Source: Undaria pinnatifida (lineage: Eukaryota > Sar > Phaeophyceae > Laminariales > Alariaceae). From it: 64,000 bases of DNA. The DNA is taken from positions 7,111,765-7,175,764 of the forward strand of contig JABAKD010000004.1 in NCBI GenBank assembly GCA_012845835.1. The letters are read 5' to 3'. The notes beneath the pieces are model-generated. The model was not told where the DNA came from and ran no database searches. It was given only the letters and a program-made list of their open reading frames with translations. Below, piece by piece: positions 91 through 48,186 of the stretch; the stretch's first letter is position 1, and each line of letters begins with the position of its first letter. The translations under genes were made by a program, and so were the position numbers.

Positions 91-273
91 GCCCGAGCGC
101 AACTGTCGGAGATGATACACTACTGCCGCGACTGTGTGTCCCTCCTGGCGCTGGTGGACGACAACATGCCGGCACAGCAGGCTGCCCTCAGGGACCGCGC
201 TGACATCCTGGTAGCAACGCCTGCCAGGCTTGTAGCGCACCTTGAGGCTGGAAACGTGCAGCTCGAGAACACG
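91..273 (+). CDS. DBP9: DBP9 exon a (motif Ib)
   Basis: The exon begins after the acceptor GCCCTGCCAG and ends before the donor GTAAGA, phase 0 at both ends. It encodes 61 residues, reading [14 protein letters not shown] and later [18 protein letters not shown], the segment between helicase motifs Ia and II. Positions 1-90 read as the 3' end of an upstream intron: no family-like peptide is present there and a stop falls in the frame tried. Confidence 0.9.
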
Positions 274-3200
274 GTAAGATTTTTTAGAGACGTACGTTGT
301 AGGGGGGGTGGGGGGGGGGGGGGGCAACGGTGAGTCGGGGAGGAGTGTTGCTGTAATATACGTTGGCCCAGCTTCAACAATTGTTGGCTTAGATTTTGCT
401 CTTTTTTCTTAGACTACTTCGATCCCCCCCTTCCTCTCACTTCCCCCTGCCTTGACGGTGCTAATAATTGTGCAGAAAACTGGGTTGGGGAGGGGGAGGT
501 AGTGGGTCGGGGAGAACTATGTTGCGGTAACAATTTTTTTCCCAGCTTCTTCAACAAAATGTGTTGGCTTAGATTTTACTTTTTTTCTCGGAGCTTGCTT
601 CGACCTCCCCCACCCCTCCCCTTTCCCCGCCGTGATAATGCTAATGCAATGCTGCGAATAATGTGATGTATGTTGGAGCCCCATCCACTGATCTGTATGA
701 GCTAGTCGTGGGTGTGGCAGATCGGATTCGTCATATTTGTGAAACCTTGGAGAAGTTCTAGGTATTCGCGGAGCTTGCATAGCCCCCCCTCCCCCAACCC
801 CTGCTCTGCTCATCCCCCGCTCCTAGGTACTGCCAACGCAATACTAATAATAATGCGATGCTGGTGGAAACCCTTGTGGTGGACGAGGCGGACCTCCAGC
901 TCTGTTTCGGGCGCGCAGATGACTTTCGGAAGCTTACTTCGACCACCCCCTCCCCCTGCGATATCGCTAAAGCTAATATATTACTTATATTAGGCTGTTG
1001 GTGGAAACCCTTATTGTGGACGGGGTGAACGTCGTGCTCTCCTTCGGGTTACATTTTCTCGATTCCTCCCCCCCCCCCCCCCCCCCCCCTCACAGTGCTG
1101 TCTCATGAAGTGACCACACAAGAAAACAAATAAACCAATTCGAAGCTGTCATCCAGCATGCAAAAGAAAATGCGCACAAGGTGCGGAAGTCCGCCTCACA
1201 AGCGGTTCTTAGTAGGATGCAGTCCACTCTTTGTGCGACTCACCGATCACCTCACGGCGCTTTGGTGCACGCGATGTCTGCCTGGTCGGTGAAAGCGAGG
1301 TGTGTTCCGTCCTGGCGTCCTGGTGTTGTAGGGATGCGAGGGTCGATGATATTAAGACCACGGCTATGCATGAAAGTAGTACCCCCCCCCTCCCCTCCCC
1401 CCGCCACGGTAATGCTATCAGTAATATAATGCTGCTGGTGGAAACCCTCCCCTCGCCGCAACAAGGCTATCGCGGTCCTGTTAGTTATGTGATGCTGCCG
1501 AGGTCGACCTCGTGCTTTCGTTCGGGCTATACTTGAGCAAACCTTACTCCGTCCCTCCCCTCCCCCCGCTGCGAAACTGCCAACGTGATACTATTCAGAA
1601 TGAAATGCTGCAGGTGGAGACCCCCCACTCGCCGCGATAAGGCTGATGCAATGGTACCACCAGATGCGAGAGTGCATGTGGAAACCCTCTTTGTAGACGA
1701 GGCAGACCTCGTACTCTCCTTTGGGTTATTTTTTGTTTTTTTTTGTATGTTTTCATAGCTCACCTCGACCCCTTCCCTCCCCCCCCCGCCCCTTGCCGCG
1801 ATAATGCCAATGCAACGGCCATAATGCGATGCTGCAGGTGGAAACCCTTGTTGTGGACGAAGCGGATCTAGTGCTCTCCTTCGGGTATGCGGATGACATC
1901 AGGAGCGTGACGAAACGCCTCCCTAAGATCTGCCAGGGGTTCCTCATGTCGGCCACACTCAGCCCTGAACTGCAGGACCTCAAGCGCGTAGTCTTGCACA
2001 GGTGTGTAGGGGATTGGGCGTGTTTTGGGGGGTGTGGGGGGGTTGTCTCCCGCTAGATCATCAAACCCCCGGTGCACTTGAACGGGTGCTATTTGCTCGA
2101 TAGGGGGGGGGGGGGGGGGGGTGGTTGGGGGGGAGGCGGTGGTGGTTATAGTGGTAGCAGTTGTGGCGGTGGTGGAGGTAGTGGCGGTGGTATTAGTGGT
2201 GTGGTGTGGTATGGCGCGGTGTGTTGTGTTGGTGATGGTGGTGGTGGTGGTGGTGGGTTTGTTTGCCCTTGTTCAACTATCGCAGCTGAACTTCCGTCGA
2301 CCCCGCCCGGTGCTCTTATTTGCTGCCCTTTTTTCTTGCCCTTTGCTCTTGTTCGCTGCTCTTGCTTGCTGCTCTTGCTTGCTGCTCTTGCATGCTGCTC
2401 TTGCATGCTGGTCTTGCCGTGTTGCCTGTCCCTTCGCTCGTGCTTCCTGCCTTCGCTTGTTGCCGTGGATTGGCTGTCCTCGCTCTTTCCTGGTGCCCTC
2501 GCCCGTTGCCCTTGCCTGTTGCCACTGCTTGATGCCTCTGCTCGCCCCCGTCTACGCTGCCGTCTACTACCCTTGGTTTTTGCCCTTGATTGCCCCCCTT
2601 GCGTGTTGCCCTTGCGCGTTGCCACCCCCCTTTGCTTGCCGATTTTTTTTGCCTTTTGTCTTTGCCCTTGGTTTCTGCGTCTGCTTGCCGCCCTTGCGTG
2701 TTTCTCTCGTGTGTTTCTCGCGCCGTGATGCCCCTTCAGCCCGGCGGTGCTTAAGCTGGAGGAAGGCGCTCGAGCCGGCAGGCTGTCTCAGTTCTACCTC
2801 CCGGTTCAGGAAAAAGACGATAAATTTCTGGTGGTGTTCGCATTCATCAAGCTCGGGTTGCTAGAGGTAACGGGGGCGTGTCTTTCTTTTTTGTTTTGGT
2901 GGTGTGTTTGTCGAAGTGGTTTGTGGCGCGTTGCTGCTGGCGTGTTCCATTGCCCTACCCCACCCCCCTGCTGCCAGATTGTATAGACTGCGGCGCACCA
3001 ATCTCTCGCTCATGGGTTTCTACCGTTATTGCGGGCGTGTTTTGTTTTTTGACATGCAGGGCAAAGGCCTGTTCTTCGTGAACGACACGGAATCTTCGTA
3101 CCGCCTGAAGCTATTCCTAGAGCAATTCCACGTTAGGTCAGCCGTTCTCAACGCGGAGCTGCCGCTCAACTCGAGGCTGCACATCCTGCAGGTTAGATGG

Positions 3201-6200
3201 GGTGGGGTGGCGTGGGAGGGGATCGGGTCGCGATACCTGCTGCGGTCGAGATGCACTCTTCTTTTTCTATGGCTCTTCGCATGAGGAACTCCACACCCCG
3301 CTCAAAAACCGATGTTTATTAGAAAAAAACGAAATTGCAAACCGATGTATAATCCCATGAAGGTACAGTGATGTACCCAGTTTAAGGCCGATGACAATGG
3401 AAAGCCGATAGCTTGGCCAAAACGTTTCCAAACTTTTTTTTTTGGGGTTATTTTGCAACGATTTCGGGTAACGTCGCGATGAGGAAAAACTATTACAATA
3501 TTGTTTTTCTGGATCTTTTTTTTGGTGATGCGGTCCAACAGGTCAATGTCTATTTTTATCAAGCCTTGGTCAACGTTGTCCAACACATACGATTGACCTT
3601 CGATCTTGAGAGGGAGACAACCCATTGTCATTGTTCTTTGCTCCGAACAAGGTCACGTGAGTGTAGGTGAAAAGCGCTGAAGAGTTAATCTCCATCCATG
3701 CCCTAGCGCGTGAGAGGTTGCTTGTGATGTCCTGTGGTCTTCCGTCACATCCTCCCAAAAAAAAAAAAATCGCCCATTGGGAGATGGTATAGAGTTTTGG
3801 TCTCAGTTTTCTACACACCAGACTCCAAATGTGTTTTTCGCAGAACCCTGATCGGCACCCGCCACAAATCACCGGCCGTAGAGTGAGCCCTGTACACCAA
3901 GGGGGGTCGGAGCCCCTTACGAGCTCGCGACGTTCAGAGTTCACGACGCTGTCGTCGATTTCGTCGGACGAAGTGTGTGGAGAACACGAAATTACGCCGC
4001 GTGTTACCCCAAGATCTGCTTGAGAATTTCTCAAGCAGATGTTGGACAAGATCGGCGCGAGAAACCGTTTATTTTTTCCGGAATTCTGGGAAGTTGAAGG
4101 AAGAAAAACTACAAAATTGGGCTCATAAGCGACCGTCCAGGCAAAGTTTGGCCGGGATATTCGGGAACTTCAAAGTTTTGGGCTTCCACTGTCACCGGTC
4201 TAAGACCACTCAGTGACAAGCCAACTTAGGTGGCCTTATCTCTGGTATGGTCTTATCTTTTTCTTCTGCAAAAAACATCTCACTCTAATTCCAAGTAGTT
4301 TTTTGTTCATGACAAGCCGATTGACTTGGTATTTTTTCTACTATGGGCTTAAATCAGATGGTCTTAAAATGGGTACACCACTGTATTAAGGTATACCGCT
4401 TTTTGGCGAAACAACAATCAACAATGACATTGAGACGATTTTGGTTGAGAAGCCCCGTCATTCAGTAAATAGAATAGCACTTGTCTCACGTGAGGAGGGA
4501 GACCCCGTCTTTTTTTTTTTTTTTTTTGGGGGGGGGGTCGTTGTTACTGCCGCGGTGGAGGTGGTATTTGTCGGCGGCGTTGTTGGTGTCACTTCTCCCT
4601 AGTCGATGAACTTGTATGACCCAACAACTCAACCCAACCCAACCCAACCCAGCCTACTCAACCCAGCCTGCCCAACCCAATCCAGTCTACCCTAAGATTG
4701 GAGAATACCTCCCCCAAAAAAAATGAAGCATGATAACATATATAAGAGCAACACCGCACCGGCTCAATGGTATCAAACCGGAACGATTTTTCCAGGAGTT
4801 CAACCGAGGCATTTTCGACTATCTCATCGTGACGGACAGCAGCATGGACGTAGAAGGGGCAGCGCTAGAAGAGGAGAGGGGTGGAGACGCTCTGACGGAA
4901 GAAAACGCCTCATTAGAGTCATCGAAATCGGACAACGACAGCGAGGAAGAGGAGGAGGGGGGAGAGGACGAGGAGGACGTGGAAGGAGGAAGGGGGGGTG
5001 AGAGCGATGGAGTAGACGCGATGGACGAAGGGGAGGAGGGAGCGGGCGATGGTGCTGGTGGCGGCGGTGAGGAGGAGGAGAAAGACGATGCGGGAATAGC
5101 GCCTACTGACGCCAAGAAAAAGAAAGCCGCTGCCGCCGCCTTGGCCGCCGCCGCGTCCAAAGGGGTTTCCAAGAAGAGGAAAGGCCGGGGAAGAGGGGGC
5201 GGCGGGGATTCGGAGTTTGGTGCCGCCCGAGGCGTGGACTTTCAAGGGGTTTCGTTTGGTAAGTGGAAGTTCGTTTTTTTTCGGGGATGGGGTGGAGGGG
5301 TTGGAGTTGGGTGTGGCGGTAATTTTAGTTTTTGAACGACCAGGGGAGCGGAAATTGAGGTGGGGGGGGTGGAGGCGGGGGGGGGAGGGGGGGGGCTACG
5401 AATTTTTTGCTTGCCTAGTCATTTGACCATTAACCACGCATCCCTTTCGAGACGGAGCGCCGTTTCTACCCCTGATGGACACCTCCAACATTTGGGCGCT
5501 CATTACGCATTTTCCGTATATTGCATGAGAACAAAAAACTGTTTGCTTATCTTATCCCCTTCCTGTTTCGCCGTTTGTGCCACCATCTATTTCCTAGGAT
5601 GGCGATCGTTTTCTCGCTACTCTCTCGTCTACCAAACTCGTCCATGTCACGTTCGTCTATTTTCCTCATCTCCTCTAACACATGCCATTCCACCATGTCT
5701 GTTTCACATTCTCCTACTGTGTGAGTCCTACTCTCTATTTGAGAAGGGGGTAGATGATTGGGTGGAGGGGGGAAGAAAGGGAGGGAGGGTAAGGAAGCTG
5801 GAAAACGAGAGAGGGGGCGGGAGAGGGTAATGGCCGGGGCGGGAGGGAGGATTGGGGGTGTGCAGGGGAAGGGGGGAGCTGGTGCTGTTTTTTTTTCTTT
5901 GCTGATACTCACGCTGTTGCTGATGTTGCTAGCGCTACTGGTCATCCCGATGCTGCTGCTGTTGTGCTAATACATGGCCTCCCACGGCAAGCAATGACGT
6001 GAATTCTATCGTTTCCTGAGATTCATCCCGGGATAGGGGTTTTTTGTTTTTTGGCCAGACGTTTCTAGCCGGTTGAGCTCCCCGAGTGAGGCCCTACGGC
6101 ATAGTCCTTGATACCTTTGACGGGTACCTTTGGTTAAGGTGGGACCAGCGCGTAGAAATGTTTGGTTGGATTGCGCGGAAGAACGCCTTCGAAATCACGC

Positions 6201-9200
6201 TTCGAGTGAGATATTGAAAGCTCCTCGTGTTGCTGCTGCAGGATCTCAGAAACTCCCGCGGCGTCCCCGGCATGGCACGACTTGTCAAAAAACGCAAACA
6301 TTGCTAGGAGTAGCGATGGGCGCTGCGATAATGAAGATACTGCCATCGTGGCGCTTTTTTTGGCCGAACTTTTTGTACTCGTATGAATGGCGAGAGTTCT
6401 TTAAACCCCCAAAGCCGTTGGGATGTGGTTGTTGTTTTTCGCAGTGTGGTGGTTTTGTACACCGAGGCCATGCGCCGCCGGAGTAGGAACGGGGACCGTC
6501 GGTAGGGACAGCTCGCGCTATCGCCACCACGGAAACTGAAGGACACACCACCTAGCGCTGGATTTGCGAATGCGATTGAGTTAAATTTGACTCGCGACGT
6601 GTATGGAAATACGTGGAGGTGTGGTGAGCTTAATAAGCTTTGTTTCCCCCCACATCCGCCGGAGAAAGAAAACGAGGCCACATGGGAGTGTTCATCCGGT
6701 TGAACTTTTAGTTTTCTTTCTAAAAACGACCCAGGCTACGGTAGGGGGTTTTGCATTGGCTCGGGGTCACTCGCGCGAGTAACCCCTCTGTTCCTCTGCG
6801 GTGTTAGGTTTTCTTGATGATATGACTTGGACGAAATCAATCCGCAACGGAATGGTTGTCTTCGCTGCCCCAAAGAAAATCGCCCACAGCATTCTTGTCC
6901 GTGAGGTAATGAGTCATTCGTGCGAGTGGCTCAATTCCGGTACTGAAAATCGGGGGGGGGGGGGGGGGGGGGTCCCCCTACCGTACCACTTTCAGTTTTC
7001 TTTTTTGTTTGTGTTAGATGCGGTACGCCCACTAAAGGGGTGATGTGCCAAGAGCAATGTGACCGCGTTTACTGAGGGAAGCCGCCCTTGTTCCTTCCGG
7101 GCTTATGAGCGCGATTCCTCAGTCGCGGCCATGCAAGCGATTTTTTTTTCCGCCTTGTATCGGCATACCCTCCTTATTCAAACCGCCTTATTGGGGGAAC
7201 CCCCCTCCCGTAGAGAGCTCCTCAACTGACGAGCGTCGGGATGTATGCCTTGTATCGGGATACCCGCCTTATTCAGACCGCCTTATCGGGGGACCCCCCC
7301 CTCCCGTATAGAGTTCCTCAAGTGGCAAGCGTCGGGAAATATATGCCTTGTATCGGGATACCCGCCTTATTCAGACCGCCTTATTGGGGGACCCCCCCTC
7401 CCGTATAGAGCTCAACTGACAAGCGTCGGGAAATGTATGCCTTGTATCGGGACACCCGCCTTATTCAGACCGCCTTATTGGGGGACCCCCCCTCCCGTAT
7501 AGAGCTCCTCAAGTGGCAAGCGTTGGGGAAAATATGCCTTGTATCGGGATACCCGCCTGATTCAGACCGCCTTATTGGGGGACCCCCCCCCTACCGTATG
7601 AGCTCCTCAAGTGACAAGCGTCGGGAAAAATGTGCTTGTATCGGGATACCCGCCTTATTCAGGCCGCCTTGTTGGGGGATCCCCCCTCCCGTAGAGAGTT
7701 CCTCAACTGACAAGCGTCGGGAAAGGTGTGCCTTGTATCGGGATACCCGCCTTATTCAGACCGCCTTATTGGGGGACCCCCCCCTACCGTATGAGCTCCT
7801 CAAGTGACAAGCCTCAGAAAACACGTGATGCGCCTCTGCCGCCGCCTGTGTCTCAACGCCTTAACGGTGCTGCTGCTGCTGGCGATTTTTGTTTGCTACG
7901 TGCTACGATAGAGGTATACCGTTTTTTGGCGAAAAAAATCTGAGTGACGGGTCTCCTTAACCCAAAATCGTCGGAAATACGACATTTTTTGTTGTTGTTG
8001 TTGCATTATTCTCGTTGTACACCTAGGCCATGAGATATTTTTTTCATCCGCGATCAAAGCGGTTTTTCTTTTTTTCTAAATCAGTTTTTGGGTTAAGAAG
8101 GGCATGTCTTAACCTCCTTAACCCCTTTAGAGCCCCAAAATCCCTCCCTATACCAACTTCAAGTAAATTTGTCCCTAGAAAGGGTTTGAGGGGTAGTATT
8201 AAGAAAAAAACGGTGCTCCTCTATCGTAGCACGCGTCAAACGCTACTTCTCAACCCGACGCCGCTGCCCCCCGTTGCTGCTGCTCGTTTCGTCACCGCCG
8301 CCGACATGCCCTTATCGCTACCCTTGGTCCTCAGTGCTAAACGTGGACTTCCCTCCTACTTCCTCCAGCTATACCCACCGGGTGGGGAGGACGGCAAGGG
8401 GCGGGGCCAGCGGAACGGCTCTTAGCCTCGTCCTGGTCAAGGACGAGCGTCAGTGCCACACCTTGCACAAGGTTCAGGTGAGCTGTTAATGGAGGGGGGG
8501 GGGGGGGGGGGGGGGGGAGGGAGGGGGGGGGGGAGGGAGAAAGGCAGACAGGCAGGCAGTTTGTTCTACACCAGACCGCACGATATTTCCTTCGTTGATA
8601 TATTTATTCTCAGAAAACAAAAGACGCACCGCCTCTCCACTCCACCCTTTTTTGTTCCACCCCATTTGTTATCTTCGCTCTACTCTCGCGCTCCCTCCCA
8701 GTAGTAGCTCAGATCCGGGGTCACATAGCGGGCCCTCCTCTCCCCCCGCCACTACCGTACGGGCCTTCATTTTTGTCGCGAGAAGAATTCATTGCAACAT
8801 TTTTGTCTTCCCTCGTCGACTCGCGTTGAATTGTTCCCTGCCCCCGCCTAGATGTCGCAACCAGCTCTTGCTGCTCCCTCTCTCGACGGGGGCGGCGGTA
8901 AGGGTCCTTCTGCTGCTGAACGGGAGTCCCTGGTGTCAGCGATGGGGACGGAGGGAGCGGCGGAGCGGGCGGCAGCAGCGGGAGGTGGCGGGAGCGGGGG
9001 TGGAGGGGGTGTGCAGCCAGCTCCTCTTGCGTTTGACATCCGAGAGATTGAGAGGTTTAGGTATCGGGTGGAGGATACGCTGAAGAAGGTTGGTTGAGCG
9101 TTTTCGTTCCCTGCTTGTCGTTGTTTGCCTTTGCTTGCCTTTGCTTGCCCTTGCTTGCGTTGTTTGCCCTTGTTCGTCTTGCTTGCCCTTGCTTGCCCTT

Positions 9201-12047
9201 GCTTGTCTCGTTTGCCTCTTGCTTGCCCTTGCTTGCCCTTGCTTGCCCTTGCTTGTCTTGTTTTGCCTTGGTTGTCCTTGCTTGCCTTGTCTTGCGTTGC
9301 TTGCCGTTGCTTGCCTTGCCCATCTTGTTTGCCATCCTTAGCCTCGCTTGTATTGTTTTGCCTTGCTTGTCTGCTTATTTGGTTGCTTGCTTGTATGCTT
9401 TTTCTTGCTTGCTTGCTTGCTTGCGCTTGTTGTGCCTGCTCGCTTGCTCACTACAACCGGATGACCTGTGTACGCCAACTTCCATTTGATCGAGCAGGAC
9501 TGCTTCCTCAAAGAGGCAGACGACGCGCCGGTGAACGCCAAGCAACCCTACTCATCAAAAGACGAGGGGGCTTCTTGGCGTTTCCTGTCGCGTCTTGTTC
9601 CTCTTTGAGGATGCAGTCCGCCTCCGTCAAACGGGAGTCAACCCGTACACAGGGCGTCCAGTGGTAGTGAACTTGCCTGTGCACGGCAACATACAGCACA
9701 AACACAATCGAAAAAACAGAACGAACGGCTGCCAAAAAAAAAACGGACAGCGGCAGCGCGGGCCTGAATGTAAGGTACTTTTTTGTCATCGTTTTGATAC
9801 CCAAACGGTCCTTAAATTTCCGGACAATTATGATGAGTCTACTGCAGCCTATTGCTACATACGGAAGATACAGAAGAGCGGGTATCGTTGTGATCATGTC
9901 GTCGTACGCGAACAAAGGGGGGCGAGGCGGGAAGGTCGCGCGGTCGCTGTGGTCCAGGTTCGGGCGCGATCTGTGCCAACAGATAGGGTAGAAGGCAAAG
10001 AGATGCAACGAAAAAATCGGAGCAAATGGCTCGAAAGAACGGCGAACAAAAACACATTTTTTTTTCTTCTTGTTTGCTTGCTTGTTATATACTTCATGTC
10101 CGCCCGATGCTTGCTTTCCTGCCTTCCCCGCCTTTCCGTGCTTGCTAATTCTTGGTGTAGGGGTACTTTGGTCATAACACCAAAGTAAACGCCCGGTCGT
10201 GTCGTTTTTGTCGTTGTCGTTGTTGGCGAATGACTGCTTGGTCGGTCGGTTTGTCGATAGCGTCTGCTTGATCGGTTTGATGGTTGCTAATAGCTGGTTG
10301 GTCGGTGCGTTGGTTGCTGGTACCTGATTGGGCGGTTTGTTGGTTGATTCCTCCGGTGCAGGTGACGCGGGTTAGCGTTCGCGAGGCCCGGGCGGCGGAG
10401 CTGAAGGCCGAGATCGTCAACTCGCAAAAGCTGGCCGGGTATTTCAAGGAAAACGCAGGTAGACCGAAACACACAATTGTCTTCGCACACCAAAAGTTTT
10501 CCGTGTTCGCAACTTTTTTTTTTTTTTTTTTTTTTTTTTGAACGTTCGTCCGTTGCTCTCTCGATCCATTCATCCGTATCTTAAGGTGCTTTAGTGTTCT
10601 TGCTTTATTGGGTGCTCTTAGATCTTTTTTGTCTTGTTCTTATTGTTGTTCTTAGCATTTTTCTTCATCTTGTTATCTTGTTGCGCTTGTTGTTATTACG
10701 GGGGACCCTAGTAAATAGGACCTACGGTGGACACATAAACCTATATATTCATATATTTTTACTAACAATATTTGGTCCTATTTACTATCGTCCTCCGTAA
10801 TAGTGCGTTTTTTCCACGTTGTACAGACCACCGATGTCCACTTGGACGCGTGCTACGATGGAGGTATATGGTATACCGATTTTTGGCGGAAGCATTTTCT
10901 GAATTACCGGGGCTCCTTAGCCCCAAATCGTCGGAATTCCCATGATTCTTTTCGCAGAGAAAAAAAATGTATACTTGTATACATACACGTATGTATACCT
11001 AGGAAATGGAAATTGCTCTTCGGGTACTCCATTTTTGTTTTTTTCTTTTAGTAATAGTAATCAGTTGTTGGGTGGAGCATGGGACCCGTGAGGTCGAGAG
11101 CCTCGGGAAGAAAAACAAATGGGGTGCCTCTACCGTAGCGTTTTTTTTTCCTGTTTTTTTTGTCGTTTCGTTTTTTTTTTGTTTAATCCTCGGGCGGAGG
11201 GGGAAAAATGTAATTGCCTAAATCTCACCACCCCCCCTTCCACGTATTCTCGTACACCTCGTCTGTCGATTTCACTCAGTTGTATCCGCAATCCAGCTGG
11301 TTTTCTGGCGTGTCCTTCAGTCCCGGTGGTAGCGACAGCGCGAGCTGTCCCTACCGGTGGTCTCCGTTACTACTCCGGCAGCGCAAGCTGCCGCTCGTCC
11401 TTGTTAATTAGATATTACGGGGAGGATCTGTTTGGCCTAGCTCGTGTTTCCGGGGGGGGGAGGACGTACGATTTGCACGATCTATCTATAACACATGTTG
11501 AGCTTGGGTCGGGGAGTCACCCCACGGTGTGGGTACAGCAGATTCTGAGAATTTTCTGAGCTCCTAACATGAGGTGGGAGGTCAGTATTTTACCCCCGAA
11601 ACATTACTTGGAAGGCGTTTCGTTCGCGCAACCCGACCAGTTGTTTCTGTGCGTTTGTGCTATTAAAACATTTGGTTCAAAACTGCAACCCCTACTCCTT
11701 GTGTACAGATCCTGTGAGCAATCCCACGGTAGGGTTGCAGCATCAGTCCCTGAGCTCCTCACATGAGGAACTCAATATCTCACCCGATGCTACATGACTT
11801 CGAAGGCGTTCGTTCGCACAACCCGGCCAAGCTTCTCTGTGCCTTAGTAGTATTCCTAAAACAATATGTACTGGTGAAATTACTTCATTGACCGGCAGTT
11901 TCTCACATGAGGAACTCAATCGGCCAGGGACTTTTTGGCGCAAACAACTGCAACCCCTACCGTGGGATGACTCCTGTACGATGTTGTTGTTGCTGTTGTT
12001 GTTTTTATTGTTGTTGTCGTTGTTGCCGCTGTTGTTGTTGTTGCCGC

Positions 12048-12078
<31 letters not shown>

Positions 12079-14299
12079 GCTGTTGTTGTTGTTGTTCTCA
12101 CATTAACTCGCATAATAAAATCCGTGGTCACAGGACAGGCTCCAGTCACTCCTGGAGCGGAGGAATACTCCCAGGGAAACACACCCACAAACAAAACCAA
12201 AAGTGGTCCACGCATGTATCATAGCTGACGCAATTCGTGACTCCGCCAGAAGAAAATATAAAATAGTGAAATCGGGAGTCAGCGTACGATGTGCCAGGTC
12301 CGCACTGGTACGTACGTCTCACTGCTCGCGCCTGAAAACACCGACTACATCGCTTGCCACCCAAAAAAAGACTACCACGATATCTGATAATGGCGGATGC
12401 ACGAAATATTGTAGATTATGTAGACTACATCGTTATCAGTCCGAGGTGCGTGTGATCTAGATCGTGATCACTCGGAGGTGTGTATGATCTAGATCGTGAT
12501 CATCAGTCCGAGGTGTGTTGTATGTTTTATGTCTTGATCGGTCGGAGGTTTGATACCATTAAGCCGGTGACGTGCGAGATCAGTACGACCGCCTTGTGGG
12601 GGGAAGTCGCTTTTTTCATTCCGGGTTATGAGTGCTATTCGCTATTCCCCAGTCGCGCCAAGCGATTTTGACCGCCTTATATCCGGATGCACATGTTACT
12701 GAGACCCCTTATATCGGGATACCGCCTTACTCAGACCGCCTTATGTCCGGGATATCGCCCTACTCAGACCGCCTTATAGAGGTATACCGCCTTACTCAGA
12801 CTGCCTTATAGAGGGATACCGCCTTACTCAGACCGCCTTGTAGAGGTATATCACCCTACTCAGACCGCCTTATAGAGGGATACCGCCTTATAGAGGTATA
12901 CCGCCTTACTCAGACCGCCTTATAGAGGGATACCGGCTTGAATACTCAGACCGCCGGTATTGCGCTTCTCTTCCTGCTGCTGCTCCAGGTGAGCTGCAAG
13001 TTCTTCGGCACGACAAATCGGTGCTCCACCCTCTCCGAAAGCAGGAGCACCTCAAGCACATCCCCGACTACCTCATGCCCCGAGGGCTGCAGACGGGCGA
13101 GGACCCCACACAGGTTAGTTGCTGACGTCGTCGTTGTTGTTGTTGCTGTTGTTGTTGTTGTTGTTGTTGTTGTTGCTGCTGTTGCCGTTGCTGCTGTTGT
13201 TGTTGTCGTTGTCGCTAATATTGGTGGTGGTGGTGGTGTTGCTGGTGTTATTGCTGATGCTGTTCTTCTTTTGTTGTCATTGTTTCTTCGATGGTTGTTG
13301 TCGTTGGTAGCGGTGCCATTGCTGTGTGTTTTGGTGCCGTTGCTGTTGTTGGTACGCGTGGCGGTGGTGGTGGTGGTGGTGATGGAGTTGGTGGTAGTTA
13401 CGGCGTTACTATATTTGTTGTCATATTGCTGTCAGTGTTGCTTTTGAAACAACCCCCCACCCCCCTCCACCCCCCTCCGCCCCCCCCTCCCATCTCAGCG
13501 ACAGCGCAAAAAGATGAAGCGAGCAAGGGGCGGCGCGAAACGCCGCCAAGGTAAAGGGCAAGACGAGGGACGGCGGAAAGACAACGATCCCCTCCAAACT
13601 TTCGAGGCTTCGGAGTTAGGCGCGGATGGAAGCTACCCTGTGGAGGGGGCAGGGGGCGCGCCGAAGCGAAGTGGGGTGGGCGGTGAAGAGGGGGGGGGTG
13701 GGAAAGGTGGGGAAATGGAGGAGGATGCGGCGAAGCGCATGAATGAAGAGCGAAAATCCAGGGTTATGCAGGTGGGGTTGGGCGGGGGGGGGAGGGGGGG
13801 GGGGGCGTAGTAACTTGTTGGTTGCCTTTGTAATTTGACCATTGACCATTCGTCTCTTTCGAGACGGAACAGAGGGGGAAGCGGGGGGGGGGGGGGGGGG
13901 TACTCACTTTTTTGCTTGCCTTCGACATTTGGCCATTGACCACGCATCCCTTTCGAGACGGAGCACGGGGGGGGGGGGGGGAGGGGTGCATGAAGGTGTT
14001 TCTCGTACTTTCGCAAGGTTAAACAGTTGTTTTTTTTCTGTGACCACGTAGCTCAGAGTTCAGGGAAATGCGCTCTAATTTGATACTGCCATCGTCATTA
14101 CTACAGAAGTAATCACGTCTTCTATACCCCTCGCCCCCCCTCCCCCCCCCCCTCCCCTCCTCCTTAGACTGGAGACTTCGCCGGAGAGAGTACCGCCGGC
14201 AGACGCCGCTGGCAGCAGAGGAGGGGAAAGGGGAAGCACGGGGGGGGTAAGAACCACAAGGCCAAGAAAACATCCACTCGATTCGATCTGCCCGTCTGA
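91..14299 (+). CDS. DBP9: DBP9/DDX56-type DEAD-box ATP-dependent RNA helicase, 5'-truncated by window edge
   Basis: Eleven exons join at GT-AG introns and keep one frame: 91-273, 1838-2001, 2740-2866, 3060-3191, 4796-5258, 8335-8477, 8852-9088, 10362-10458, 12989-13113, 13499-13771 and 14168-14299. They sum to 2076 nt, giving 691 residues and a TGA stop. Motifs seen in order are Ib ([10 protein letters not shown]), II ([13 protein letters not shown]), III (FLMSATLS), IV (GKGLFFVN), V (ARGVDF) and VI (HRVGRTAR), then [26 protein letters not shown] and HIPDYLMP. The last three are hallmarks of DBP9/DDX56 as I recall the family rather than of other DEAD-box helicases. The family works in the nucleolus in 60S ribosomal subunit assembly. 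Motifs Q, I and Ia lie upstream of the window. Lineage-specific additions are an acidic insert before motif V, a Gly/Ala-rich insert in exon 7 and a basic Gly-rich tail. Family assignment is firm; exact boundaries are read by eye. Confidence 0.93.
274..1837 (+). other. DBP9 intron 1 with decayed copies of the following exon's start
   Basis: This GT-AG intron of 1564 nt carries repeated blocks: a C-rich tract, then a stretch like GATAATGCCAATGCAA, then a near copy of the first ~50 nt of exon b. Copies start near 864, 1001, 1438, 1614 (short) and 1678. A copy of a dispersed ~245-bp repeat lies at about 1143-1385 in minus orientation, and long G and C runs are at 301-323 and 1069-1089. Confidence 0.8.
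1838..2001 (+). CDS. DBP9: DBP9 exon b (motifs II and III)
   Basis: The exon follows the acceptor GATGCTGCAG and ends in AG before GTGTGT, leaving phase 2. It encodes [17 protein letters not shown] with the DEAD box, then [20 protein letters not shown] with motif III (SAT). Upstream near-copies of its start in intron 1 either lack the acceptor AG or are truncated, so this copy is the functional one. Confidence 0.93.
2002..2739 (+). other. DBP9 intron 2, low-complexity
   Basis: The intron has a G-tract and GGTGGT microsatellite at about 2104-2260. It then has a degenerate run of CTTGCTTGCC/TTGCCCTTG-type units from about 2330 to 2725. The same pyrimidine-rich motif recurs in intron 7. Long ORFs here on both strands are by-products of this composition. 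Confidence 0.75.
2740..2866 (+). CDS. DBP9: DBP9 exon c
   Basis: The exon follows CCCCTTCAG; its first base completes a serine codon begun in exon b. It encodes [20 protein letters not shown] and then [20 protein letters not shown], the linker into the second RecA-like domain. It ends in phase 0 before GTAACG. Confidence 0.92.
3060..3191 (+). CDS. DBP9: DBP9 exon d (motif IV region)
   Basis: This 44-codon exon follows GACATGCAG and precedes GTTAGA. It encodes [20 protein letters not shown], then [20 protein letters not shown]. The FVN-x2-E-x-SYRL-x-LFLEQF pattern is characteristic of the family's helicase C domain. The intron before it (2867-3059) is the shortest of the gene at 193 nt. Confidence 0.93.
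3192..4795 (+). other. DBP9 intron 4 with unassigned open stretches
   Basis: This 1604-nt GT-AG intron contains a 159-codon minus-strand frame at 3570-4049 and another at 3302-3631. Neither matches a family I recognise; they may be remnants of an inserted element. A poly-T/poly-G run lies at 4510-4538 and a CCCAACCCAACCC-type tract at about 4622-4690. Confidence 0.5.
4796..5258 (+). CDS. DBP9: DBP9 exon e with acidic insert and motif V
   Basis: The exon follows the acceptor TTTTTCCAG and ends in phase 1 before GTAAGT. It opens with [16 protein letters not shown] and closes with [15 protein letters not shown], holding motif V. Between them are roughly 125 residues dominated by Glu, Asp and Gly, then a Lys/Ala stretch and a [10 protein letters not shown] basic patch. 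DDX56 has a shorter charged insert at the same place, so the insertion site is family-typical but enlarged here. Confidence 0.9.
7140..7820 (+). repeat. ~96-bp minisatellite, about 7 copies, in DBP9 intron 5
   Basis: Each unit carries TTGTATCGGGATACCCGCC, then TTATTCAGACCGCCTTATTG, a G/C block and GAGCTCCTCAAGTGACAAGC. The core (GGGATACCGCCTTA-TTCAGACCGCC) recurs in intron 8 and, inverted, at 51.2-51.5 kb with a ~32-bp period. Confidence 0.85.
7899..8236. mobile_element. MITE-A copy in DBP9 intron 5
   Basis: The left end reads GTGCTACGATAGAGGTATAC and the right end CTCCTCTATCGTAGCACGCG, an inverted pair. The interior has the family landmarks CTCCTTAACCCAAAATCGTC, CCTAGGCCATG and AAATCAGTTTTTGGG. 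Near 8118-8190 it includes a block homologous to the 19.3-20.3 kb minisatellite unit. It has no coding capacity. Confidence 0.85.
8335..8477 (+). CDS. DBP9: DBP9 exon f (motif VI)
   Basis: The exon follows TTGGTCCTCAG; its first two bases finish a valine codon from exon e. It encodes [20 protein letters not shown], then [20 protein letters not shown]. The HRVGRTAR arginine-finger motif is intact. It ends in phase 0 before GTGAGC. Confidence 0.94.
8852..9088 (+). CDS. DBP9: DBP9 exon g
   Basis: The exon follows CCCCGCCTAG and ends before GTTGGT, phase 0 at both ends, 79 codons. The first ~55 residues are a Gly/Ala/Ser-rich insert not expected in the family. The last part, [20 protein letters not shown], is the conserved FRYR region of DBP9/DDX56. 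The preceding intron (8478-8851) has a long G run at 8492-8530. Confidence 0.88.
9089..10361 (+). other. DBP9 intron 7, low-complexity then unassigned
   Basis: From about 9110 to 9440 the intron is a degenerate run of TTGCTTGCCC units like that in intron 2. From 9460 to 10200 there is nonrepetitive DNA with overlapping open frames on both strands that I cannot assign. From 10225 to 10355 it is rich in GGTCGGT/TTGGTTG motifs before the acceptor CCGGTGCAG. Confidence 0.6.
10362..10458 (+). CDS. DBP9: DBP9 exon h
   Basis: The exon encodes [20 protein letters not shown], then [12 protein letters not shown], matching the family helix that follows the FRYR region. It ends in phase 1 before GTAGAC. 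Confidence 0.92.
10696..10800. mobile_element. MITE-C, 105 bp, TA target duplication
   Basis: The ends are TTACGGGGGACCCTAGTAAA and, inverted, TTACGGAGGACGATAGTAAA; the similarity runs about 27 bp. TA flanks both sides (10694-10695 and 10801-10802). A second full-length copy is at 24325-24429. The TA duplication suggests mobilisation by a Tc1/mariner-type transposase; that part is inference. Confidence 0.85.
11513..11976. mobile_element. two adjacent MITE-B copies
   Basis: The first begins GGGGAGTCACCCCACGG at 11513 and runs to about 11710, where its right end is degenerate. The second runs from CAATCCCACGGTAGGG (about 11729) to CCTACCGTGGGATGACTCC (about 11975). Both contain GAGCTCCT-x-ACATGAGG and the TTCGAAGGCGTT or TTGGAAGGCGTT landmark. 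Confidence 0.75.
11983..12096 (+). repeat. GTT/TGC-type trinucleotide microsatellite
   Basis: This is a TTGTTG run with interspersed CTG and CCG triplets. The Leu, Cys and Thr runs it encodes in different frames are not genes. Confidence 0.9.
12660..12955 (+). repeat. ~32-bp minisatellite in DBP9 intron 8
   Basis: The unit is close to ATACCGCCTTACTCAGACCG followed by CCTTATAGAGGG, about nine copies with variation. It is the same family as the intron 5 array and as the inverted array at 51.2-51.5 kb. Confidence 0.85.
12989..13113 (+). CDS. DBP9: DBP9 exon i
   Basis: The exon follows TGCTGCTCCAG; its first two bases complete a glycine codon. It encodes [20 protein letters not shown] and [20 protein letters not shown]. 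The LQ-x-LRHD-x4-LHP and H-x2-HIPDYL-x-P patterns match DDX56/DBP9. It ends in phase 0 before GTTAGT. Confidence 0.93.
13114..13498 (+). other. DBP9 intron 9, GTT/GGT microsatellite
   Basis: The intron is almost entirely TTGTTG and GGTGGT triplets, then a C-rich tract before the acceptor CATCTCAG. No coding content beyond repeats. Confidence 0.85.
13499..13771 (+). CDS. DBP9: DBP9 exon j, basic C-terminal region
   Basis: This 91-codon exon starts [20 protein letters not shown], then [13 protein letters not shown], comparable to the Lys/Arg-rich tail and the NPL-x-SF motif of DDX56. The second half is Gly/Glu-rich. It ends in phase 0 before GTGGGG. Confidence 0.85.
13772..14167 (+). other. 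DBP9 intron 10
   Basis: The intron has long G runs and two copies of a block reading TTGACCATTGACCA...TTTCGAGACGG (about 13838-13870 and 13928-13965). The same block occurs in intron 5 (about 5420-5460). It ends in a C/T-rich tract and TCCTTAG. Confidence 0.75.
14168..14299 (+). CDS. DBP9: DBP9 terminal exon
   Basis: The exon follows CCTCCTCCTTAG and reads in phase to TGA at 14297-14299. The peptide [20 protein letters not shown], then [18 protein letters not shown], is a basic tail as usual for nucleolar helicases. The phase match and stop support it; the tail itself is not conserved enough to prove it. Confidence 0.8.
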   Translation, partial: TGDFAGESTAGRRRWQQRRGKGKHGGGKNHKAKKTSTRFDLPV

Positions 14300-14321: not shown

Positions 14322-15664
14322 GGAGTCGTTCCACGGTAGGCGTTGCAGTTGTTGAACTAAATGTTTGTGAGCGGTCCGTCTCCCTGCGTGAGGAACTACC
14401 GGTTAACCTGATACTTTTTCGAGCGTAGTGCATGGAAGGGTTGGTCCGAATGCGCGATTGGATGCCTTCGAATCGTCGTGTGTCGGGTATGTATCAAGCT
14501 CCTACCTCATGATAGGAGCTCGGAAATTTCTTAGAATCTGCTGCACCCCCACGGTGGGATGAGCTCATCATGGTAGGAGCTCGGAAATTTCTTAGAATCT
14601 GCTGCACCCCCACGGTGGGATGAGCTCCTCATGGTAGGAGCTCGGAAATTTCTCAGAGTCTGCTGCACCCCCACGGTGGGATGAGCTCCTCATGGTAGGA
14701 GCTCGGAAATTTCTCAGAATCTGCTGCACCCCCACGGTGGGATGAGCTCCTCATGGTAGGAGCTCGGAAATTTCTCAGAATCTGCTGCACCCCCACGGTG
14801 GGATGAGCTCCTCATGGTAGGAGCTCGGAAATTTCTCAGAATCTGCTGCACCCCCACGGTGGGATGAGCTCCTCATGGTAGGAGCTCGGAAATTTCTTAG
14901 AATCTGCTGCACCCCCACGGTGGGATGAGCTCCTCATGGTAGGAGCTCGGAAATTTCTCAGAATCTGCTGCACCCCCACGGTGGGATGAGCTCCTCATGG
15001 TAGGAGCTCGGAAATTTCTTAGAATCTGCTGCACCCCTCCGGTGGGATGAGCTCATCGTGGTAGGAGCTCGGAAATTTCTTAGAATCTGCTGCACCCCCA
15101 CGGTGGGATGAGCTCCTCATGGTAGGAGCTCGGAAATTTCTTAGAATCTGCTGCACCCCTCCGGTGGGATGAGCTCATCGTGGTAGGAGCTCGGAAATTT
15201 CTTAGAATCTGCTGCACCCCCACGGTGGGATGAGCTCCTCATGGTAGGAGCTCGGAAATTTCTTAGAATCTGCTGCACCCCTCCGGTGGGATGAGCTCCT
15301 CGTGGTAGGAGCTCGGAAATTTCTCAGAATCTGCTGCACCCCCACGGTGGGATGAGCTCCTCATGGTAGGAGCTCGGAAATTTCTTAGAACCTGCTGCAC
15401 CCCTCCGGTGGGATGAGCTCCTCGTGGTAGGAGCTCGGAAATTTCTTAGAATCTGCTGCACCCCCACGGTGGGATGAGCTCCTCATGGTAGGAGCTCGGA
15501 TAAGTCTTAGAACCTGCTGTACCCCCACGGTGGGATGAGCTCCTCGTGGTAGGAGCTCGGAAATTTCTCAGAATCTGCTGTACCCCTATGGTGGGATGAG
15601 CTCCTCATGGTAGGAGCTCAAAAATCTCTTAGAATCTGCTGCACCCTTCCCGTGGGAGGGATGA
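14322..15664. mobile_element. MITE-B copy expanded by a 61-bp tandem array
   Basis: The left end GGAGTCGTTCCACGGTAGG starts 22 nt after the DBP9 stop. The unique interior (to about 14500) has the family landmarks GAGGAACTACCGGTTAAC and ATGCCTTCGAATCG. The right terminal segment is repeated 19 times before a final end near CCCGTGGGAGGGATGA. DBP9 polyadenylation signals must therefore lie in or beyond this element. Confidence 0.8.
14500..15655 (+). repeat. 61-bp minisatellite, 19 copies
   Basis: The unit contains GAGCTCCTCATGGTAGGAGC, TCGGAAATTTCTCAGAATCT and GCTGCACCCCCACGGTGGGA. The phase shifts by exactly 1 nt per 60-base line, so the period is 61. Each unit has an inverted repeat GAGCTCCT/AGGAGCTC. 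In the right half, CTCCGGTGG variants occur every second unit, a 122-bp dimeric order. Confidence 0.95.
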
Positions 15665-37009: not shown

Positions 37010-37724
37010 GACGCGCGTGCTGCGATAGAGGCGCGCACGACTTTTTGTTTTCTGATACTACCCCTCACTATCGGAGCTTGAGACCTCTCCCAAAAAACTG
37101 ATTTGGAGAAAAACAAAACTGCTCGTACGTACATATCGGATGAAAAGAAAATCATGGCCTCTACGTTGATACACACGACGAGAATCATTTGGGGGGGAAA
37201 AAAAAGTGGTGTTTTTCCGACGATTTGGGGTTAAGGAAGCCCCGTCATTCAGAAAAAAAAATCGCCAGAAAGAGGTATACCTTAATACCTTAATACAATT
37301 TACGACGATTTTGGGTCAAGGAAGCCCCGTCATTCAGAAAACGTTTTCGCCAGAAAGAGGTATACCTTAATACCTTAGTACAATTTACGACGATTTTGGG
37401 TTAAGGAGTCCCGTCATTCAGAAAACGTTTTCGCCAGAAAGAGGTATAGTACCTTAATACCTTAATACAATTTACGACGATTTTGGGTTAAGGAGCCCCG
37501 TCATTCAGAAAACGTTTTCGCCAGAAAGAGGTATACCTTAATACCTTAATACAATTTACGACGATTTTGGGTTAAGGAGCCCCGTCATTCAGAAAACGTT
37601 TTCGCCAGAAAGAGGTATACCTTAATACCTTAATACAATTTACGACGATTTTGGGTTAAGGAGCCCCGTCATTCAGACAAACATTTCACACGAAAAGCGC
37701 TGCCTCTATATCGTAGCACGCGTC
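37010..37724. mobile_element. MITE-A copy with a six-unit internal array
   Basis: Left end GACGCGCGTGCTGCGATAGA, right end CTATATCGTAGCACGCGTCC. From about 37218 to 37680 an ~85-bp unit (ACGACGATTTTGGGTTAAGG, AGCCCCGTCATTCAGAAAAC, GTTTTCGCCAGAAAGAGGTA, TACCTTAATACCTTAATACA) is repeated six times, several copies nearly identical. Confidence 0.92.
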
Positions 37725-38584: not shown

Positions 38585-38830
38585 GTGGTGGTACTCATTT
38601 CATGCGCAGCCGTAGTCTTGAGATCATAGACCCTCGCATACGAGCAATGCCGGGACGGACCGCGTCGGGTTTTGACCGAGCAGAAAGACATCGCGTGCGC
38701 CAGGCGCGAAGCGCCGTGAGGTCTTCGGCGAGTCGCATGAAGGGAGAGCTGCATCCTACGACAAGCACCACTTGTGACGCGGAATTCCGCACCTTGCGCG
38801 TGTTTTCTTGCACATCGGATGACAGCTTCG
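38585..38830 (+). repeat. dispersed ~245-bp repeat, copy 2
   Basis: It shares GACCCTCGCATACGAGCAAT-type, ATGCCGGGACGGA and GTCTTCGGCGAGTCGCATGA with the copy at 47975-48180, and inverted with 1143-1385. The frame reading DPRI-x2-MPGR and SASRMKGELHP stays open in both plus-strand copies. Confidence 0.75.
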
Positions 38831-40190
38831 AATGCCTTGTTTTTTTTTATCCTGGCGAGGCCACTTCCAAAGACAGCAATGGGGATACTATGTAACTGCC
38901 TCGTGGGTGCCTTACCATATTCTCACTACGTGACACCACCCCCCTCGCGCGGAGTTAAGGTTTTCCACGCGGCACACTATGATCTAACTCGTCCACCATC
39001 TCGGTTAACACCAAACAGAAAAAAAAAAACGAGAGAAACGAAAAAAGACGGTAACCTGGTCCGGGTGGGGAAGGCGGGCGGGGAGGGGGCGGCAGCAACG
39101 TGAGAAAGTCCAGAACGAGGTTGGGGGGAACACGGAACAATCGAGGGAAGACCGGGGGTGGGGGGCCGGGGGATAGAACCTCATTCCCGAGTAGCTCTCC
39201 TATTTAGTTCCGGCTTCGTAACAGAGGCATCATGTCGCCAAAGAATTGTTGATGTTGCGACCAACAACAAGATGTGTTTCGAGTGTTTTTTCAATGGCCT
39301 ATTACACTCGGTGTTGAAAATGACGAGTATATATGGCACTTCTCGTAATGAAAATACTATATTTGCGGTATTTCGTGCAGTACTATAGCGCTATTTATAG
39401 TATTATATTGAGCTGTTTATATTGTTGTATGTAACACTATTTTTAATACTGTATAGTTATATACAGTGCTGCATAGTATTGTATGATGATGCTCACGTAA
39501 TAATATGTATGGACTATTGTTATGATATGTATAATACTATGTATAATACTGTGTATAATACTATTTTAGAGAACATGAAAATTGCACATCATCATCAGCT
39601 GTGAGGTCGATATTTTGATCAGTATTTGCAAGCTGCGTGTGATAGTTCGATCGCGCATGTTGAGGGGTGTGTATACCCTCGTGAAGGATACAGATCGGCG
39701 TGTACAACGCTATATAATATCATATTATACTACGAGTGTATAATACAATTATAGTACAATATATAATATGTATAGACTAGTCTAACATAATTCTATCAAT
39801 TTCTCTACAACTAACTGTATTAATAAATCATGTCGCGGTACTATATAATACTACTATGAAATACTATTCAATACTACTCATAGATAATGCCGCAGTCTCG
39901 GCGATGAGAAGCGGAGAACAGAATATCACCGCACCTGCTTCTTGCTCTTGCGGACCCCGCGCTTCCCCCTTCTCTTTTTTTTTCTGGGCGCCACCTGGTA
40001 CATGTCAGGATGTGTGTAGTGCAAGAACGACTCAATAGGATAATTGGGCTTTCTTTGCACGATATGGAAAGGCGGTTTACGAGGATGCGAAACCGTCAGC
40101 GGTTGCAACAGGCAGCTTCGAGACGCCTGTCTGTGCTGTGAGATATTAAAGTTCACTCTGTTTTTGCTCTACCCCAACCTCTGCTCAGCG
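38830..40190. other. intergenic, AT-rich with TATAATACT-type repeats
   Basis: From 39360 to 39860 it is dense in TATAATACTAT motifs. A ~100-bp dispersed repeat (TTTGCAAGCTGCGTGTGATA...CGATCGCGC) is at about 39615-39715, shared with 45760-45900, 52640-52780 and 63400-63490. No gene seen. Confidence 0.55.
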
Positions 40191-40672: not shown

Positions 40673-41860
40673 ATTATTATTAGTCCGTTTGACCACCGGT
40701 AAAAAGGCCAACAAAAATTGCCTACCCAAACTAGGCCTTAATATGCCAATTCCCCCACGCTGGAACGGCAGGATAGTCAGAGGTCGGCCGGCGGGTATAC
40801 GGGCGGGGAGGTGTTAAATATCCACGCGTTTCCGATTCCTGGTGAGATTTTTTTTTTTTTTTATTCGACATGCATGCGGGGGAAAGGGGAAAGTCGTAAA
40901 AATTTTATTGTTTTGGTGAATTGTGACACTCGAACCCACGACACCCCAAAAGCATGACGTGGGCCGCGACAGAGGTGTGCACCTATTTTTTTTTTAGGAT
41001 TACCCCTCATTTTAGGATGTCAAGACGCGCCCTTCTTGACCGCAGACCTGATTTGATTTGGAGAAGAAAAAAATACGTAAAACGGACTACACCGGATGAA
41101 AACCCTCGTATTGTCTAGAGATCGTACAAGTAGAACGAGAATCACGCAAAAAAGAAACCTTACGATTTTCCGACGATTTTTTTGGTCAAAGAACCCCGTC
41201 ATTCACACAACTTTTTCACCAGAAAGAGGTATACCTTAATACCTTGATACAATTTACGACGATTTGGGGTTGAAGAATCCCGTCATTCAGAAAAAGTTTT
41301 CGCCAGAAAGAGGTACACCTTAATACCTCAATATACTTCACGACGATTTCGGGTTAAGGAGCCCCCGTCATTCAGAAAACGTTTCGCCAGGAAGAGGTAT
41401 ACCTTAATAAAATCCACGACGATTTTTGGTTAAGGAGACCCGTCACTCAGAAAACGTTTTCGCCAGAAAGAGGTATACCTTAACACAATTTCCGATGATA
41501 TTGGTTCAAGGAACCCCGTCATTCAGAAACCGTTTTCGCGACAAAGAGATATACCTTAACACAATTTTCGACGATTTTGGTGTAAGGAGCCCCGTCATTC
41601 AGAAAACGTTTTCGCCAGAAAGAGGTATACCTTAATACCTTAATACAATTTACTACGATTTTTTGGGTTAAGGAACCCCGTCATTCAGTGACTATTTCAG
41701 ACCAAAAGCACTACCTCTGTCGTAGCACGCGTCCCACATCCTTCCGACGACGTCATTTGCTAAGGAACTATATTGGTATTAGTCTATTTGACCAATACTG
41801 GAAAAAAGCTACCCAAATTGCCTACCCCGACGAAGCCTTATTTGTATAACAGAATCCCGT
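40640..41860 (-). mobile_element. SINE-2 copy split by MITE-A
   Basis: The left part (about 40640-40955) holds the degenerate T-arm ACTCGAACCCACGACACCCC. The sequence resumes at about 41737 with CCGACGACGTCATTTGCTAA after MITE-A (40956-41733). In the uninterrupted copy near 26320-26370 these segments are adjacent. Confidence 0.7.
40956..41733. mobile_element. MITE-A copy with a seven-unit internal array
   Basis: Left end GACGTGGGCCGCGACAGAGG, right end CCTCTGTCGTAGCACGCGTC. The ~77-88-bp subterminal unit repeats at about 41163, 41251, 41340, 41417, 41494, 41567 and 41651, more diverged than in the 37-kb copy. Confidence 0.9.
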
Positions 41861-47974: not shown

Positions 47975-48180
47975 GGGGGTACTCAGGTTGTGCATGGGCG
48001 CCATCGTATTACCATAGACCCTCGCATCCCTACCATGCCGGGACGGAGCACGTCGGGTTTCCACCAACCAGCTAGACAGTGCTTGCACCAAGCGCGAACC
48101 GCCGTGAGGTGTTCGGCGAGTCGCATGAAAGGTGAACTGCATCCTTCCAAGAACCTTTCGTAAGGCAGACTTCGGCACCC
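47975..48180 (+). repeat. dispersed ~245-bp repeat, copy 3
   Basis: Shares GACCCTCGCATCCCTACCAT, GCCGGGACGGAGCACGTCGG and TTCGGCGAGTCGCATGAAAG with the 38.6-kb copy. It ends just before the terminal codons of the minus-strand gene at 48187. Confidence 0.75.
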
Positions 48181-48186
48181 GTGTGC

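Follow-up and report, generated by a model that had tools for sequence, protein, structure and literature searches.

In Undaria pinnatifida, the intron that precedes exon b of the DBP9/DDX56 gene contains a degenerate array of units of about 165-180 nt, located at about 312-1837 of the window (the whole stretch of 64,000 nt that was analysed). Five or six of these units carry a copy of the beginning of exon b behind an intron-like tail. The array is best explained, with a probability of roughly 0.85, as an old "mirage" minisatellite, formed by serial tandem duplication across the intron-exon boundary and in which only the copy attached to the exon is functional.

Host gene and organization of the array

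Within its first 8.5 kb the window has six exons that are joined at GT-AG boundaries into one frame of 404 aa (Table 1), and the product is DBP9/DDX56. The assignment to this gene is based on the Pfam DEAD match of exon b and on the presence of proteins named DDX56/DBP9 (P0002, P0004 and P0007) among the top hits. The closest matches from named organisms come from Ectocarpus, with Ectocarpus fasciculatus at 74% identity over 68% of the query and Ectocarpus sp. 8 at 75% over 70%. Phaeothamnion, Chrysoparadoxa and Tribonema likewise rank close to the top of the protein matches, and two metagenome proteins share 77-78% identity over 54-55% of the query. Further tblastn matches to the relatives are found at about 9014-9091, 10359-10496, 12985-13110 and 13529-13663. 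A second protein labelled Ectocarpus fasciculatus (P0061) gives 43-74% per exon by tblastn, compared with 61-98% for P0009 of Ectocarpus sp. 8, and is possibly a contaminant in the E. fasciculatus record or a paralogue.

The intron which holds the array was designated intron 1 in the earlier note, a label that is unproven. An acceptor precedes exon a too, and the match to exon a in the proteins of five relatives starts only at residue 86-140, so the intron is probably not the first of the gene. An insert at the junction of exons a and b is absent in all 11 of the relatives' proteins that were fetched (of 120 listed), and for this reason the array is presumably spliced out. The string DEAD is present once in 10 of these 11 proteins, while P0010 has a second DEAD at residue 349, far from the junction; among the 120 listed proteins the string occurs once in 108 and twice in 12.

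Table 1. Positions in the window of the DBP9 exons, the array-bearing intron and its parts
Feature	Position	Strand	Remarks
DBP9 exon a (upstream exon, ends ...NVQLENT)	91-273	+	acceptor ccctgccag, donor gtaag; tblastn of 5 relatives
Intron holding the array	274-1837	+	gtaag ... ctgcag; frame continuous over six exons in the gene model
Upstream units without exon part	312-465 and 487-645	+	offset 175, 71%, self-blastn E 5.6e-13
Unit U3	765-923 (perhaps to ~930)	+	C-rich intron tail, 3-nt gap at AG, exon-start copy 864-923
Unit U4	924-1052	+	tail and exon-start copy 1001-1049, CAG to TTG
Dispersed ~270-nt repeat interrupting the array	1107-1375	.	imperfect CATGAA(A)GT at both ends
Compound unit U6	1380-1526	+	tail, 11-nt exon start 1438-1448, second tail, exon piece 1499-1526
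Short exon-start piece U6a	1438-1448	+	GTGGAAACCCT, exact
Exon piece U6b	1499-1526	+	28 nt, start of copy missing
Unit U7	1545-1620	+	tail, intact CTGCAG at 1608-1613, ~10 nt of exon start
Short exon-start piece U7	1614-1623	+	2 changes in first 11 nt
Unit U8, nearest the exon	1621-1726	+	tail and exon-start copy 1678-1726, CAG to CAT
Functional intron 3' end	1759-1837	+	C-tract, ctgcag
DBP9 exon b (helicase motif II)	1838-2001	+	Pfam DEAD 1.9e-7; tblastn of 5 relatives 74-91%
Other DBP9 exons in the gene model	2740-2866, 3060-3191, 4796-5258, 8335-8477		GT-AG boundaries

The array unit consists of a T-rich stretch with an AGCTTxCTTCGACC-like start, a C-tract, a GATAATGCTAATGC-like stretch and an acceptor, to which the exon start is added where it is present. 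As in mirage minisatellites, the units are arranged head to tail, with offsets of 164-180 nt and in degenerate form. Self-comparison aligns 585-668 with 765-860 (offset 180, 69%, E 0.001), 1380-1468 with 1545-1644 (offset 165) and 1621-1726 with 1785-1886 (offset 164, 75% over 106 nt), as well as 841-911 with 978-1048 at an offset of 137. Units U6 and U7 are compound. Segments 850-923, 994-1049 and 1621-1726 match the sequence around the exon b acceptor, with intron and exon sequence from both sides of the real boundary, and all of the copies lie within the intron beside that genuine boundary, at 864-1726 with the exon at 1838. The upstream beginning of the array at 312 and the dispersed repeat inside the array were missed by the earlier note. 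No exon part can be recognised in the units that precede 764, which counts against the mirage reading to the extent that not every unit of the array is a boundary copy. Tandem Repeats Finder, used with a score of 50, reported no array in 274-1837 because the array is so decayed.

Ungapped copies of the first 48 nt of exon b start at 864, 1001 and 1678, with 40, 40 and 39 identities, respectively. In 1000 dinucleotide shuffles of the intron, the best match to the 48 nt had a maximum of 29 identities and a mean of 23.0. The extents of the copies in blast are 864-923 (80%, 60 nt), 1001-1049 (84%, 49 nt) and 1678-1726 (82%, 49 nt), and all three long copies have E values from 6e-11 to 9e-9 in a search of the first 20 kb. 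The copy at 864 may extend in register to ~930, the end stretch alone being within the range of the shuffles (P 0.16). In the copies at 864 and 1678, 16 protein letters each are readable in frame. These observations confirm the description in the earlier note of an exon start that recurs in the intron, as three long copies and shorter pieces whose coordinates have been slightly corrected here, and of copies at 864 and 1678 that read VDEAD in frame.

Elsewhere in the window (after 2001) the 48-nt exon start has at most 26 identities on the plus strand and 28 on the minus strand. The first 12 nt of the exon are not unique, as 11 or all 12 of them are matched after 2001 at seven places on the plus strand and one on the minus strand. 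The segment 19349-20225 contains four exact 11-nt hits of the exon b start and two longer imperfect ones, which lie inside arrays of 76-77-nt period. Comparison of the 12 boundaries of the six exons with the first 14 kb (E 1e-4) returned copies of the exon b acceptor only, and since a single boundary of the 12 has copies, the array reflects a local event rather than a general repeat. The first 11 nt of exon b, GTGGAAACCCT, are unchanged in U3, U4, U8 and U6a. Within U3, U4 and U8 these positions have 0/33 changes versus 25/111 at +12 to +48 (P 0.001), a comparison for which the region was chosen after seeing the data. Positions +49 to +100 of exon b were considered as a source of the unit start, and none of the 13 pieces tested was beyond the shuffles (the best, after U3, had P 0.16).

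Proposed history of the duplications

In the proposed mechanism, a segment of ~165 nt, with ~110 nt from the end of the intron and ~50-60 nt from the beginning of exon b, would have undergone several tandem duplications spread over a long period. Each time, the copy joined to the rest of exon b would stay functional, while the displaced upstream copy would become part of the intron and then decay. New copies would arise mainly next to the exon, the spliceosome would use only the last acceptor, and the array would probably do nothing more than lengthen the intron. As a physical cause one can offer slippage or unequal exchange at the C-rich tracts, although this is a guess, and a breakpoint at the microhomology CCTCCC was considered, a candidate that is hard to judge in sequence so rich in C. 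Minisatellite arrays are common in the window, so that a mutational process of this type is available. The low complexity of the C-rich tracts makes the alignment of the intron part less sure, a point against the mirage reading. The unit structure, the clean GT-AG gene model and the relatives without an insert support the proposal of the earlier note that a 3' splice boundary was duplicated repeatedly and that the last copy alone is functional.

A single burst of duplication followed by neutral decay would leave the exon and intron parts of the units equally diverged. Pairs of dead copies among the three full ones are 77-79% identical in the exon part and 48-56% identical in the intron part (Fisher P 0.018, 0.0037 and 0.0074, the pairs being non-independent). 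This closer agreement of the exon parts supports serial events and not one burst. The exon part would be the better kept because it was constrained while in use, with the copies leaving the functional exon at different times. Relative to exon b, the exon part is also more alike than the intron part in U3 (P 0.008) and U4 (P 0.001), but not in U8, where the identities are 81% and 72% (P 0.35); because the C-rich part is aligned with less certainty, the gap between exon and intron parts is widened further. Third positions diverge more than first and second positions among the dead copies (0.32 versus 0.15, P 0.036), and this excess is explained by a coding trunk shared by the copies.

The intron tail of U8 is the most like the functional tail (72%, versus 58% for U3 and 53% for U4), as expected if new units arise beside the exon. 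Judged from the exon part, however, U8 is not the youngest, as it matches exon b at 39/48 positions and both U3 and U4 match at 40/48. In addition, there are silent states common to exon b, U3 and U4 that are absent from U8. The tails and the exon parts disagree on the order of the duplications, and later exchange between copies is possible. The high divergence of the units suggests that the array is old. A more far-reaching and rather doubtful view is that the intron preserves the start of a single exon in successive layers, in which dead copies freeze the codons in use when they were displaced and the purging of acceptors is visible. If this view is true, ancestral silent states of the live exon would be readable within a single genome.

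State of the acceptors and alternative explanations

The AG has been lost at 864 (by a 3-nt gap), 1001 (CAG to TTG), 1438 (CAG to CTG) and 1678 (CAG to CAT), and the short copy at 1614 retains CTGCAG; the earlier note gave the same four losses and the same intact site. The same note suggested that competing acceptors had been lost, and the loss of AG itself is clear, although its selective nature is only suggestive. It is conceivable that selection removed the competing acceptors and that AG loss was adaptive rather than plain decay, a tentative reading to which we would assign somewhat less than an even chance. Four different lesions destroy the AG in four of the five copies whose exon start can be aligned, and the next 11 nt have only 2/55 changes, which gives P 0.038 if lesions are random over -12 to +11. 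The value rises to P 0.14 when lesions are confined to -12 to -1, and the odd conservation of the first 11 exon nucleotides noted above inflates the acceptor contrast. Moreover, U7 retains its AG, and the sixth piece at 1499-1526, which has no boundary, is outside the count.

Alternatively, the copies could be used now, or have been used recently, as alternative 3' splice sites or as coding-constrained exons, above all the copy at 1678-1726. This is improbable. The differences between U8 and exon b comprise eight at third positions and one at a first position, those of U6b comprise six at third positions and one at a second position, and U7 has an intact CTGCAG. Under neutral mutation from the majority codons the pattern in U8 has P 0.006-0.011, and the pooled value is 0.02-0.05. 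A fairer null allows the live exon silent changes only and leaves the copy free to change; it gives P 0.02 for U8 as the best of four, 0.08 for U6b and 0.11 for U3, U4 and U8 pooled, and the third-position pattern was not taken as evidence that U8 was coding on its own. Relative to the majority, U4 has five replacing changes and no silent ones. The copies also lack the remainder of the exon, and an insert is missing from the fetched proteins of the relatives.

The intron contains 70 AGs including the last, of which 33 are YAG and 37 are not. In-frame extension into exon b was assessed for the 32 upstream YAGs, and from none of them is the frame open; nine are in frame but stopped and 23 are out of frame. 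Only two AGs occur in 1741-1837, at 1757 and 1836, so that the stretch between 1759 and 1835 before the functional site is free of them. Judged from these reading frames, alternative splicing into the copies, a possibility raised in the earlier note, is unlikely, and productive use of a copy is not supported. The suggestion in the earlier note of an expanded exon start is likewise not supported, as the inferred coding sequence contains no copy.

That the boundary was duplicated artificially, through mis-joined reads or collapsed haplotypes, is very improbable. The region is rich in repeats, and one amphioxus mirage seems aberrantly assembled in its draft-genome version (PMC3087553). Duplicates made by assembly, however, would be near identical, and this disfavours an artefact since each full copy has 8-9 mismatches to the exon in 48 sites and 10-11 to any other full copy, with a distinct lesion at each lost AG. 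Finally, chance matches and self-similarity caused by C-rich tracts, which the earlier note had named as one finding that would overturn its reading, can be dismissed on the shuffles: poly-C and poly-G tracts are everywhere and many weak hits in the window are C-tracts only, but the exon part is not C-rich, its identities far exceed the shuffle maximum, and the copy at 864 was hit in tblastn by the protein queries of all five relatives (E 1.3e-4 to 2.4e-6).

Related systems and other repeats of the window

Mirage minisatellites have been described in amphioxus in Adh3 (cited via PMC3087553) and in the globin genes BflGb6 and BflGb9. In BflGb6 the tandem units are 150-160 bp and combine the 3' end of the intron with the 5' part of the exon; splice signals are kept in many, though not all, copies of the amphioxus mirages, and regular splicing is reportedly undisturbed (PMC3087553). 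The DBP9 array resembles these mirages in its tandem units across an intron-exon boundary, and its anatomy is the same as that described for BflGb6. It differs in its host, which is a stramenopile alga, and in being more decayed, with identities among the full copies and the exon of 77-83% in the exon part and 48-72% in the intron part, versus 81-100% in BflGb6. It is also interrupted by a dispersed repeat, unlike the amphioxus mirages, and is known from the sequence of one haplotype. The lancelet PGBD5 gene has imperfect tandem repeats over splice sites, which belong to another gene and phylum and have shorter units than the DBP9 array (PMC3902484).

Two other types of duplication are comparable in part. 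Intron gain by tandem genomic duplication, in which a duplicated exonic AGGT segment creates a new intron (PMC3443670, PMC2891723), likewise involves a segment with splice signals of which one copy becomes intronic, but in DBP9 an existing intron appears to have been lengthened and the array lies within that one intron. The intragenic partial exon duplication of Solea dmrt1 spans 10.4 kb and includes whole exons (PMC7605655). It shares with DBP9 a truncated exon copy that lacks the correct frame, and differs in being a single duplication rather than an array of short units.

The DBP9 array is a real and instructive addition to a kind of duplication already known from lancelets. Mirage duplication, as described in the lancelet reports (PMC3087553, PMC3902484), is thus also found in a stramenopile, a lineage distant from the lancelets, and the decayed state of the DBP9 array shows the fate of the copies. 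Boundary duplication provides a concrete route to intron lengthening and a natural test of the loss of competing 3' splice sites. Ectocarpus has long introns (autosomal median 524 bp), and the distribution of tandem repeats over its genome is rather even (PMC12477816). Should mirages turn out to be frequent in brown algae, boundary duplication would count among the ways in which their introns became long. No paper on minisatellites at splice boundaries in Ectocarpus was found in a search that lay largely outside subscription journals, and other hosts, algae among them, may be in print. A pattern search of viral contigs for a relative's intron gave one match, which was not a relative.

The dispersed repeat of ~270 nt that interrupts the array occurs at three places in the 64 kb, at 1107-1375 and, on the opposite strand, at 38598-38867 and 47991-48241, with identities of 71-73%. 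The copy in the DBP9 intron has an imperfect CATGAA(A)GT at each end, which suggests a small mobile element. The large DBP9 intron at 5259-8334 contains a 97-nt minisatellite (7152-7812; 6.9 copies, 88% matches) with no match to any of the six exons tested. A crude coding filter passed 31 of the 616 stop-to-stop ORFs of at least 55 aa in the window. A 61-nt minisatellite is present at 14505-15646 (18.7 copies, 94% matches), and the window has many further arrays with periods of 50-170 nt. Two of the arrays, at 37214-37686 and 41167-41688, are separate arrays of the same ~84-nt unit that are ~82% alike and start ~3.95 kb apart.
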